Positions 2,300-18,740 of a stretch of DNA of 64,000 nt are shown here, one piece after another (position 1 is the stretch's first letter; each line of letters begins with the position of its first letter). The stretch covers positions 620,001 through 684,000 of the forward strand of contig NZ_CP040098.1 of the NCBI RefSeq assembly GCF_005377625.1, given 5' to 3'. This DNA comes from Desulfoglaeba alkanexedens ALDC (lineage in GTDB: Bacteria > Desulfobacterota > Syntrophobacteria > Syntrophobacterales > DSM-9756). Under the pieces are notes generated by a model. The model was not told the DNA's origin. It saw only the letters and a program-made list of their open reading frames with translations, and did not search any database. Made by a program: the position numbers and the translations under genes.

Positions 2300-2413
2300 T
2301 CACTGCACTTTCTTCGCCTTGGGGGTGAGCAGGATGTAATGGGAAAGGCCCGTGTTGTTTCCCAACTGGCGGCAACGACGACGATAGGCGATGATCTTCG
2401 AATCCTTCTTCAT
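2300..2413 (-). CDS. cbpA: Short precursor peptide (CbpA-like), 37 aa
   Basis: A 37-residue basic peptide, beginning MKKDSKIIAYRRRCRQLGNN and ending in a Lys-rich tail, with one cysteine at position 14. A strong AGGAGG ribosome site lies 5 bases upstream of the ATG, which argues that it is translated. It sits directly between the riboswitch terminator and the radical SAM gene, 9 bases before the latter. In this family the peptide is the substrate of the adjacent SPASM enzyme; the central Cys and the GNNTGLSHY stretch are plausible modification sites (inference). No separate leader-peptide cleavage motif such as GG is obvious. Confidence 0.82.
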   Translation of the reverse strand: MKKDSKIIAYRRRCRQLGNNTGLSHYILLTPKAKKVQ

Positions 2414-2443
2414 GACATCCTCCTTTGTGCGGTTGCGGGGTCA

Positions 2444-2498
2444 CAAAAAAACCCGGGTCGAGCGCCCGCCCCCTCATGGGCGGGACCCGATCCGGGTT
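2444..2498 (-). terminator. Intrinsic terminator, expression platform of the cobalamin riboswitch
   Basis: On the minus strand a two-part GC-rich stem (AACCCGG paired with CCGGGTT outside, CCCGCCC with GGGCGGG inside) is followed by a run of seven T. It lies between the aptamer and the cbpA start, so B12 binding would be expected to stop transcription before cbpA. Confidence 0.82.
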
Positions 2499-2529
2499 CC
2501 TTTTACCATCGGGTTCCCGTAAAGAACGC

Positions 2530-2700
2530 TTGCCTGCAGGTCTTCTGGCTCTCGGATCAACTGAAAGGTCGCGGCCTTCCCCCCGGGGTAAACCCCGGAA
2601 GTGACCGAGCCGACGCTCTTTGCGACCCTTCATCCCCGATCACAGCGGCGGGACCGCCACGGATTCGCACCGTGTTCCGGGATGCAGGAAGCCTTCCATC
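2530..2700 (-). promoter_or_regulatory. Cobalamin riboswitch aptamer controlling cbpAB
   Basis: Read on the minus strand the segment has the landmarks of the adenosylcobalamin aptamer in order: GGTGCGAATCC, GCGGTCCCGCCGCTGTGA, a GTCACTTCCGGG element, GGGAAGGC, and GAGCCAGAAGACCTGC at the 3' end. It is followed by an intrinsic terminator and then cbpA, which fits a transcriptional OFF switch. Confidence 0.93.
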
Positions 2701-2714
2701 GTCAAACCGTTCTC

Positions 2715-2744
2715 TTCATACGCGAAAACGGACGCACGTGTCAA
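2715..2744 (-). promoter_or_regulatory. Sigma-70 promoter of the riboswitch-cbpAB transcript
   Basis: On the minus strand TTGACA (2739-2744) and TATGAA (2715-2720) are 18 bases apart, directly upstream of the aptamer. The same boxes are conserved in the second copy. Confidence 0.75.
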
Positions 2745-2841
2745 GGGTGTCAGACCCCGTTTTCGACTTTCCTGCATCCGGAAAGCCTCCGCGTCGTTGC
2801 TCCCGATCGGGGAACCCGCTGGCGGCCCGGTGCACACCCCC

Positions 2842-2873
2842 AAAAAAAAAGCGGGGCCGTCGCCCCGCTTTTT
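2842..2873 (-). terminator. Terminator after hsp20 (copy 1)
   Basis: AGCGGGGC, a short loop and GCCCCGCT form a perfect stem flanked by A and T runs; on the minus strand it is followed by nine T. The A run on the other side means it could work in both directions. Confidence 0.85.
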
Positions 2874-2927
2874 CCGGAAGCGCTTCAGCACCGCCCTTAC
2901 GCCGCTTCGGCGTTTTCCAGACCGGCA

Positions 2928-3371
2928 TCAGCGCTTGACCGGAATCTTCTTCGGCTTCGCGGATTCCACCTTGGGAATCTCAATCCGGAGTACACCGTCC
3001 TTATAGACCGCCTCCACTTCATCGGCCTTCACTTCCACCGGAAGGCGGATGGAACGACTGAAAGACCCGAAACGCCGCTCCAGCCAATGGTAGGACTCAT
3101 CCTTCTCTTCCCGCTCCTGCTTCTTTTCACCGCTGACAGTGAGGACGTTGCCCACGATCTGTATATCGAGATCCTTCGCGTCAACACCGGGAAGATCGGC
3201 CTTCACCACGATCTTGTCCTAGGTTTCGGACAGGTCGAAGGCCGGAACCATCGGGATTTCCTCCCTCCTTACCGAAGGCATCCACTCATCGAAGAAACGA
3301 TCGAAAAGGCTCCACTCCCTTGGAAAAGCCAACGCACGTTCCCTGCGTTCCCATGGAATCAGTCCGAACAT
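2928..3371 (-). pseudogene. Small heat-shock protein Hsp20, copy 1, nonsense-mutated
   Basis: This is the left copy of the Hsp20/alpha-crystallin gene at 18214-18657. Codon 51, GAG (Glu) in the intact copy, is TAG here (3219-3221), so translation from the natural ATG at 3371 stops before the alpha-crystallin domain. A GTG 11 bases after the stop codon (3209) could give a 93-residue piece lacking the N-terminal arm and the first part of the domain, but no good ribosome site precedes it. The copy has also lost the -35 box found upstream of the intact gene, so it is probably silent. A sequencing error at one base cannot be excluded. Confidence 0.88.
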
Positions 3372-3436
3372 ATCCACTACCTCCTATCTCACCGATTTCT
3401 CAAGCCTATCTGATAATTCCGTTCCAAAATTAATTA

Positions 3437-3540
3437 ATGGATTCCGGGTCAAGCCCGGAATGACGGAAAAAGGACCGGACGAATCCGGGTTCCTTCAGTG
3501 CCCGTCACCCCGGTCCCGGATCAAGTCCGGGATGACGGAC
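3437..3540. repeat. Two short inverted REP-like elements
   Basis: Two copies of an element of the form ATTCCGGGTCAAGCCCGGAAT followed by GACGG occur at 3440-3466 and 3513-3540, the second as CCCGGATCAAGTCCGGGATGAC. A related decayed element lies near 49440-49540. They mark the left edge of the island, just outside repeat copy 1. Confidence 0.7.
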
Positions 3541-17641: not shown

Positions 17642-17853
17642 ACTGGACTGATGAAGCGGAACGATGGCTCAAGGATATTCACGACTACATAACTCAGGAT
17701 AGCCCAGAATCAGCAGTACGGGTAGTTGAAGCTATCTACGAAAAGGCACAATTGCTGGGTCGGTTTCCAGAAGTAGGCCATAGGTACGATAGAATCCCAG
17801 ATCGACATGAAAGAACGCTTGCCTGCAGGTCTTCTGGCTCTCGGATCAACTGA
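17629..17853 (+). pseudogene. RelE/ParE toxin truncated by repeat copy 2 (cassette 8)
   Basis: The first 60 residues are toxin-like (INWTDEAERWLKDIHDYI, SPESAVRVVEAIYEKAQLLG, FPEVGHRYDRIPD). At 17810 the frame enters the direct repeat, and the last 14 codons are antisense riboswitch sequence. The C-terminal strands that carry the active-site residues of this superfamily are missing, and so is the cassette's attC. This marks the right end of the island. Confidence 0.85.
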
Positions 17854-17989
17854 AAGGTCGCGGCCTTCCCCCCGGGGTGAACCCCGGAAGTGACCGAGCT
17901 GGCGCTCTTGGCGACCCTTCATCCCCGACTACAGCGGTGGGACCGCCACGGATTCGCACCGTGTTCCGGGATGCAGGAAGCCTTCCATC
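17819..17989 (-). promoter_or_regulatory. Orphan cobalamin riboswitch aptamer (copy 2)
   Basis: All aptamer landmarks of copy 1 are conserved, from GGTGCGAATCC to GAGCCAGAAGACCTGC. The expression-platform terminator at 2444-2498 is not part of the repeat, so here the aptamer is followed directly by sequence antisense to the truncated toxin and the higBA cassette. Confidence 0.9.
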
Positions 17990-18003
17990 GTTAAGTCGTT
18001 CTC

Positions 18004-18033
18004 TTCATACGCGAAAACGGACGCACGTGTCAA
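18004..18033 (-). promoter_or_regulatory. Promoter of the orphan riboswitch
   Basis: TTGACA (18028-18033) and TATGAA (18004-18009), 18 bases apart on the minus strand, are identical to copy 1. Transcription would run antisense into the right end of the cassette array. Confidence 0.7.
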
Positions 18034-18128
18034 GGGTGTCAGACCCCGTTTTTGACTTCCTTGCCTCCGGAAAGCCTCCGCGTCGTTGCTCCCGATCGGG
18101 GAACCCGCTGGCGGCCCGGTGGACACCT

Positions 18129-18159
18129 AAAAAAAAGCGGGGCAGTCGCCCCGCTTTTT
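18129..18159 (-). terminator. Terminator after hsp20 (copy 2)
   Basis: AAGCGGGGCGACTGCCCCGC followed by a run of T on the minus strand; the stem is conserved against copy 1 with one compensated difference in the loop region. Confidence 0.85.
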
Positions 18160-18213
18160 CCGGAAGCGCTTCAGCACCGCCCTTACGCCGCTTCGGCGTT
18201 TTCCAGACCGGCA

Positions 18214-18657
18214 TCAGCGCTTGACCGGAATCTTCTTCGGCTTCGCGGATTCCACCTTGGGAATCTCAATCCGGAGTACACCGTCCTTATAGACCGCCTC
18301 CACTTCATCGGCCTTCACTTCCACCGGAAGGCGGATGGAACGACTGAAAGACCCGAAACGCCGCTCCACCCAATGGTAGGACTCGTCCTTCTCCTCCCGC
18401 TCCTGCTTCTTTTCACCGCTGACCGTGAGGACGTTGCCCACGATCTGTATATCGAGATCCTTCGCGTCAACACCGGGAAGATCGGCCTTCACCACGATCT
18501 TGTCCTCGGTTTCGGACAGGTCGAAGGCCGGCACCACCGGGATTTCCTCCCGCCTTACCGAAGGCATCCACTCATCGAAGAAACGATCGAAAAGGCTCCA
18601 CTCCCTTGGAAAAGCCAACGCACGTTCCCTGCGTTCCCATGGAATCAGTCCGAACAT
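18214..18657 (-). CDS. Small heat-shock protein Hsp20 (intact copy)
   Basis: A 147-residue small heat-shock chaperone that holds unfolding cytoplasmic proteins. The N-terminal arm (MFGLIPWERRERALAF) is followed by the alpha-crystallin domain from about residue 42 (DLSETEDKIVVKADLPGVDA) to VYKDGVLRIEIPKVE, with the conserved GVL pattern, and a tail ending KKIPVKR that holds an I-x-V motif. The start is the ATG at 18657, 8 bases after AGGAGG; in-frame GTG codons just upstream overlap the ribosome site. It has its own promoter at 18713-18740 and a terminator downstream. Confidence 0.95.
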   Translation of the reverse strand: MFGLIPWERRERALAFPREWSLFDRFFDEWMPSVRREEIPVVPAFDLSETEDKIVVKADLPGVDAKDLDIQIVGNVLTVSGEKKQEREEKDESYHWVERRFGSFSRSIRLPVEVKADEVEAVYKDGVLRIEIPKVESAKPKKIPVKR

Positions 18658-18712
18658 ATCCACCACCTCCTATCTCACCGATTTCTCACGCCTATCTGAT
18701 AATTCCGTCTCA

Positions 18713-18740
18713 AAATTAATTCCGCTTGAACACTTGTCAA
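18713..18740 (-). promoter_or_regulatory. Promoter of intact hsp20
   Basis: On the minus strand TTGACA (18735-18740) and TAATTT (18713-18718) are 16 bases apart. The -35 box lies outside the direct repeat, so copy 1 lacks it. Confidence 0.6.

Follow-up and report, generated by a model that had tools for sequence, protein, structure and literature searches.

On the minus strand of the window, by which we mean the whole 64,000-nucleotide stretch of Desulfoglaeba alkanexedens ALDC DNA analyzed here, a cobalamin riboswitch aptamer is followed in turn by an intrinsic transcription terminator, a 37-codon peptide gene of the cbpA type, and cbpB, a gene for a predicted radical SAM/SPASM peptide maturase. 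All four elements stand in the order given by the original prediction, which had read them as a single transcript; the range that it assigned, 2300-2700, spans riboswitch to peptide, but the enzyme gene falls outside it (2290-899). The peptide gene occupies 2300-2413, starts with ATG, and is preceded by a Shine-Dalgarno sequence, AGGAGG, at 2419-2424 (CCTCCT on the plus strand). Its stop codon is separated by only 9 nt from the start of cbpB, which extends over 899-2290 and encodes 463 amino acids. Beyond cbpB, a gene for a GspG-like pseudopilin, named from its sequence rather than by a family scan, converges from the plus strand, and the operon therefore apparently ends at cbpB.

A cobalamin riboswitch and terminator precede cbpA

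The aptamer core (2540-2678, minus strand) was recovered by a covariance-model scan (cmscan) with the Rfam cobalamin riboswitch model RF00174, which scored 69.5 bits (E=4.4e-15) against a gathering score of 31.5 bits, so a recognized cobalamin riboswitch model does score where the original prediction placed an aptamer. This local match, read from 2678 to 2540, spans model positions 47-167 of 189, with the complete aptamer probably occupying about 2522-2700. The terminator, at 2444-2500 on the same strand, consists of a GC-rich hairpin and a run of seven T residues behind it, identified by folding, comparison with shuffled sequences, and a pattern scan; the region has a minimum free energy of -49 kcal/mol over a 101-nt stretch, and none of 200 shuffles was equally stable. 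Among relatives, a terminator lies between aptamer and cbpA in 85 of the 86 loci where the end of the aptamer could be located, and its stem sequences vary from lineage to lineage.

The interval between aptamer and terminator holds the element GAUGGUAAA (2502-2510, minus strand). The motif (G)ATGG(T/C)AAA or a close variant occurs at this position in 68 of 86 riboswitch-bearing loci, and AUGGAAA is present in several loci outside those 68 with (G)AUGG(U/C)AAA. This element is likely to be L13 of an L5-L13 kissing loop.

Of 38 cobalamin riboswitches that proved functional in one study, 37 have a predicted terminator, and addition of corrinoid leads to repression (PMC9600662). If the present riboswitch behaves like those of the terminator type, cobamide would repress cbpAB, and the pair would be expected to be on when cobamide is scarce. 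The locus resembles the known terminator-type cobalamin riboswitch regulons of btuB, cbi and cob genes in aptamer family and platform type, but differs from them in its target, which is a peptide precursor and its maturase rather than a known enzyme or transporter. The other riboswitches of the same genome that have recognizable neighbors lie at BtuB-type receptors, a CbiK-type gene, CbiC/CbiF and CobT. Two tandem cobalamin riboswitch pairs, at 3077499-3077982 and 3089130-3089612 of this genome (L004/L008 and L005/L007), precede two BtuB-type receptor genes. At another locus, L019, four cobalamin riboswitches are found within 9 kb, around cbpAB, cbiA, cbiC and a cbiF/L-type gene.

The peptide core is nearly fixed and under protein-level selection

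The 37-residue window peptide, MKKDSKIIAYRRRCRQLGNNTGLSHYILLTPKAKKVQ, carries the conserved residues R11, C14, and G22, L23, S24, H25 and Y26. It shares with the NCBIfam family TIGR04164 (CbpA, cobo_pep) the R, C and GLSHY core, and with TIGR04164 and TIGR04163 (CbpB, rSAM_cobopep) the adjacency of peptide and enzyme genes. The names CbpA and CbpB, which the original prediction had given, thus refer to the right families, although the window peptide itself scores below the curated CbpA cut-off (23.6 bits, E=2.6e-5, versus 35 bits); because position and motif support the assignment, we call it CbpA-type. Its identity to relatives reaches 76%.

Across 87 distinct peptides, the Cys, Gly-Leu and His of the motif R-x-x-C...G-L-S-H-Y are invariant, while Arg is kept in 99%, Ser in 98% and Tyr in 95%; R, C and GLSH(Y/F) as a whole are thus nearly fixed. 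AGGAG or GGAGG lies ahead of 93 of 106 cbpA genes. Codon differences among cbpA genes fall mostly at the third position (992, versus 343 and 222 at the first and second), and many synonymous codons are in use at the invariant residues. This third-position excess, together with the free synonymous variation, indicates that selection on cbpA acts at the level of the protein.

CbpB resembles the SPASM maturase CteB

The window enzyme matches TIGR04163 at 700.5 bits, well past the cut-off of 375, and both PF04055 and PF13186 score above their cut-offs. Invariant across 83 CbpB sequences are the radical SAM CxxxCxxC cysteines (C94, C98 and C101) and eight C-terminal cysteines (C329, C334, C352, C394, C397, C403, C407 and C425). 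In its predicted structure (mean pLDDT 91), CbpB is closest in the PDB to CteB, the SCIFF (ranthipeptide) maturase that acts on CteA (PDB 5WGG/5WHY), with Z 34.9 and rmsd 3.1 over 374 residues (residues 20-441 of CbpB); a sulfatase maturase (Z 31.7), ChlB (Z 31.3) and TigE (Z 28.2) follow. A search of the PDB with the CbpB sequence profile likewise returned CteB first (E=6e-36). The whole-enzyme model aligns to CteB starting at residue 20; the N-terminal domain of about 80 residues, a candidate PqqD-like peptide-recognition (RRE) domain modeled as three strands and two helices, had no significant fold match when searched alone (top Foldseek match TbiB1, E=0.41; CteB, Z 2.2).

CteB links a Cys of its peptide into a thioether (PMC8326336). 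Given a CteB-like maturase and an invariant Cys in CbpA that is available for such a bond, a Cys crosslink, for example a thioether, is a fair guess for the modification, with a link through His or Tyr as the alternative. The two systems differ in that identity between the enzymes is only about 22%, that CbpAB is found in B12 operons, and that SCIFF precursors have six cysteines, whereas in CbpA a single Cys is conserved alongside the GLSHY core, which places the peptide outside the SCIFF definition.

Relatives retain the riboswitch, terminator, peptide and enzyme as a set

We collected 110 cbpB loci, 80 from named genomes and 30 from a Desulfobacterota sample in which 36 of 395 genomes encode CbpB; 97 distinct loci were left once duplicates had been dropped. 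A cbpA gene is recognized in 106 of the 110, and it adjoins cbpB in 93 of the 97 distinct loci, drawn from several phyla. Among the four exceptions, the upstream DNA available for L029 and L054 is too short, and the genomes of L041 and L046, both Thermodesulfobacteria, carry cbpA at another site. We accordingly rejected the idea that Thermodesulfobacteria had lost cbpA; in both genomes the two genes are separated, and neither site showed a riboswitch. A peptide profile search detected CbpA in 9 of 9 genomes with CbpB and in 0 of 15 without it, as expected if the peptide is conserved alongside its enzyme. The separate cbpA genes of the Thermodesulfobacteria have other neighbors: that of L130 (1498-1593, plus strand) comes after another SPASM-type radical SAM gene (179-1375), and that of L129 (1498-1593, minus strand) after a metK-like gene.

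A riboswitch lies directly upstream of the pair in 76 of the 97 distinct loci. In 13 more, cobamide genes on the same strand stand beside the pair in place of the riboswitch; three loci have neither (L041, L046 and L082), and five have too little upstream DNA to be classed. Among 29 further phylum loci, Rfam placed a riboswitch ahead of cbpA in 27, the two without one (L096, L097) sitting within cob operons, and a riboswitch model built from the phylum loci gave an upstream match in most of L013-L092. The survey of other genomes that the original prediction had called for thus finds riboswitch, terminator, peptide and enzyme conserved together, and its central claim, that an enzyme-modified peptide is under B12 control, is well supported by comparison (riboswitch 76/97, terminator 85/86, adjacent cbpA 93/97).

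Cobamide genes surround cbpAB in several phyla and co-occur with it

Clustering of flanking ORFs, combined with NCBIfam scans of representatives, showed that 23 of the 80 named loci have cobamide genes in the vicinity of cbpAB. The neighbors named in this way include ring-building and late genes (a CobD-CobQ fusion, CbiB, CobA, CbiA, CbiC, CbiD, CbiE/T, CbiF, CobT, CobS, CobU and a CobC-like protein) as well as a CbiX-like chelatase, CbiM, CbiQ, CbiO, and BtuF-, BtuC- and BtuB-like proteins. The order in L058 is cobD-cobQ, cobA, cbiA, cbiC, cbpA, cbpB, cbiX-like, cbiM, cbiQ, cbiO, cbiD, which L068 and L090 resemble, and in L043 cbpAB is followed by cobT, cobS, cobD and cbiB. In L089 and L091, cobS with cbiB-cobD, or cobU-cobT-cobS, precedes cbpAB, after which come btuF-like, btuC-like, ABC ATPase and btuB-like genes. 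The organisms in which cbpAB lies in cobamide operons include some labeled Desulfobacterota, Chloroflexi, Verrucomicrobia, Planctomycetota and Omnitrophota.

Genome content follows the same association. Among sampled Desulfobacterota, CbiD is present in 34 of 34 genomes with CbpB versus 15 of 36 without it (Fisher p=1.7e-8, with kinship ignored), and in a mixed set it is present in 24 of 32 genomes with CbpB. A corrinoid-related role gains support from this co-occurrence and from the cobamide operons that surround the pair in many genomes; the product itself may, as the original prediction suggested, be cobalt- or corrinoid-related. Other B12 genes discriminate poorly: CobS occurs in 31 of 32 genomes with CbpB and 12 of 15 without, CobA/BtuR in 29 of 34 and 33 of 36, respectively, and CbiK in most genomes of either kind. 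Of the eight CbpB-encoding genomes of the mixed set that lack CbiD, four have CbiC (L041, L043, L046 and L071). The remaining four, metagenome bins L049, L060, L089 and L091, had no match to CbiD, CbiC or CbiF above cut-off; these organisms may depend on cobamide salvage, or genes may be missing from incomplete bins. Because CbpB occurs in such genomes, its role fits general cobamide metabolism better than a single ring-building step.

One candidate step could be rejected. Replacement of CbiJ, the precorrin-6A reductase, by CbpAB would require an exchange of one for the other, but among the sampled CbiD-bearing Desulfobacterota CbiJ is absent both from 31 of 34 genomes with CbpB and from 15 of 15 without it. 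That cobalt-precorrin-6A reductase (PF02571) is missing in 46 of 49 such genomes overall suggests that another reductase probably takes this step in Desulfobacterota.

A proposed role for modified CbpA in cobamide metabolism

With a riboswitch and terminator upstream at this locus, and the same pair inside the B12 operons of other phyla, the modified peptide probably serves B12 metabolism. We propose that cbpA and cbpB form a ribosomal-peptide system of the B12 regulon, in which CbpB-modified CbpA acts in the producer's own cobamide biosynthesis or salvage and not as an antibiotic, a reading to which we assign a probability of roughly 60%. Both the chemistry of the modification and the B12 step that the product would serve are inferred, and the cycle might run as follows. 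With cobamide plentiful, the riboswitch would allow the terminator to form and transcription would stop ahead of cbpA; with cobamide scarce, the riboswitch would be unbound, the terminator would be absent, and CbpA and CbpB would be made. CbpB would then modify the conserved C-terminal core of CbpA, where the Cys and GLSHY lie, probably through a crosslink, for example a Cys thioether. Modified CbpA would work in cobamide synthesis or salvage, for instance as a corrinoid- or cobalt-handling peptide or as a peptide-derived cofactor, until a rise in cobamide ended cbpAB transcription.

In one special case of this proposal, CbpA would give rise to a small redox cofactor needed by a reductive reaction of cobamide synthesis, such as Co(II) to Co(I). 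A short peptide with a conserved His-Tyr in its core, a SPASM maturase, and a position beside ring-building as well as late cobamide genes are all in keeping with this idea. PqqA is the precursor of PQQ and MftA that of mycofactocin, and in both of these systems (PqqA/PqqE and MftA/MftC) a small peptide and a SPASM radical SAM enzyme serve the producer's own cofactor. The CbpA core, however, is unlike that of PqqA or MftA, and flanking-ORF clusters reveal no recurrent dehydrogenase partner, cleavage enzyme or protease, or PqqD/MftB-like partner beside cbpAB, so we do not file cbpAB among the PQQ/mycofactocin systems. Nor does CbpAB replace CbiJ, which almost every sampled producer lacks whether CbpB is present or not. 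We regard the redox-cofactor version as unlikely.

Outside the producer's own metabolism, the peptide could instead be a signal or growth inhibitor that is released at B12 scarcity and aimed at neighbors, scarcity being a mere cue. Many SPASM-modified peptides are antimicrobial or signaling molecules, and the SCIFF peptides, which the enzyme nearest to CbpB in structure makes, appear under quorum sensing in PMC8326336. Three observations make such a function distinctly improbable for CbpA: the neighbor clusters inspected show no exporter, peptidase or immunity gene that accompanies cbpAB repeatedly across lineages, the core is near-invariant across phyla, in contrast to most antimicrobials, and cbpAB is embedded within cobamide operons.

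We think it quite doubtful, too, that the modified peptide is a corrinophore, secreted or held at the surface to capture corrinoids or cobalt, even though cbpAB shares its B12 control with BtuB-type genes of the same genome, has BtuF-, BtuC- and BtuB-like neighbors in L089 and L091 and CbiX-like and CbiM neighbors in L058 and L068, and encodes a peptide with invariant Cys and His. Inspection of CbpA by eye revealed no apparent signal peptide, no dedicated exporter was seen, and the pair also occurs in bins labeled Chloroflexi. Chloroflexi are usually thought to be without outer-membrane B12 receptors. Finally, a reading of the small ORF as a leader peptide that serves riboswitch regulation and is no enzyme substrate, as its shortness and its place between terminator and enzyme gene might suggest, is highly improbable and was rejected, because selection acts on the protein and because the peptide is retained in cobamide operons with no riboswitch directly ahead and can be distant from the enzyme gene within one genome.

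The cbpAB locus is thus of a known but uncharacterized kind. The NCBIfam short names cobo_pep and rSAM_cobopep suggest that curators were already aware of a cobalamin link, and our search of the open-access literature found no paper on the function of cbpA or cbpB; what is added here is the operon context and the co-occurrence. B12 biosynthesis is among the best-mapped pathways in biology. Against that background, a near-fixed peptide core and its radical SAM maturase lie within cob/cbi operons of several phyla and elsewhere under a B12 riboswitch; a place for this peptide in cobamide metabolism, if true, would extend ribosomal modified peptides to a new role and supply a piece that the pathway has lacked. 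More tentatively, the radical-SAM-modified peptide could be a working B12-pathway part across many anaerobic phyla, whether as a chaperone for corrinoids or cobalt or as a novel cofactor derived from a peptide, of a kind undescribed in the literature searched.

A second copy of the riboswitch region

A second, near-identical cobalamin aptamer, absent from the original prediction, lies at 17993-17807 on the minus strand (63.1 bits; RF00174 model positions 1-189). It belongs to a duplicated block of about 900 bases, comprising the aptamer and an upstream Hsp20-like gene, that spans about 2522-3440 and recurs at about 17810-18730; over two 300-base stretches compared, the copies are 95-98% identical. 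The second aptamer (17807-17993) has no terminator, cbpA or cbpB, and because homology ends just past it, it resembles an orphan riboswitch; it leads into a ParE-like toxin gene encoded by the opposite strand. The Hsp20-like gene at 2928-3377 (minus strand), a name read from the sequence without a family scan, is interrupted by a TAG in frame at around 3219-3221, while its copy at about 18200-18670 is free of this stop.
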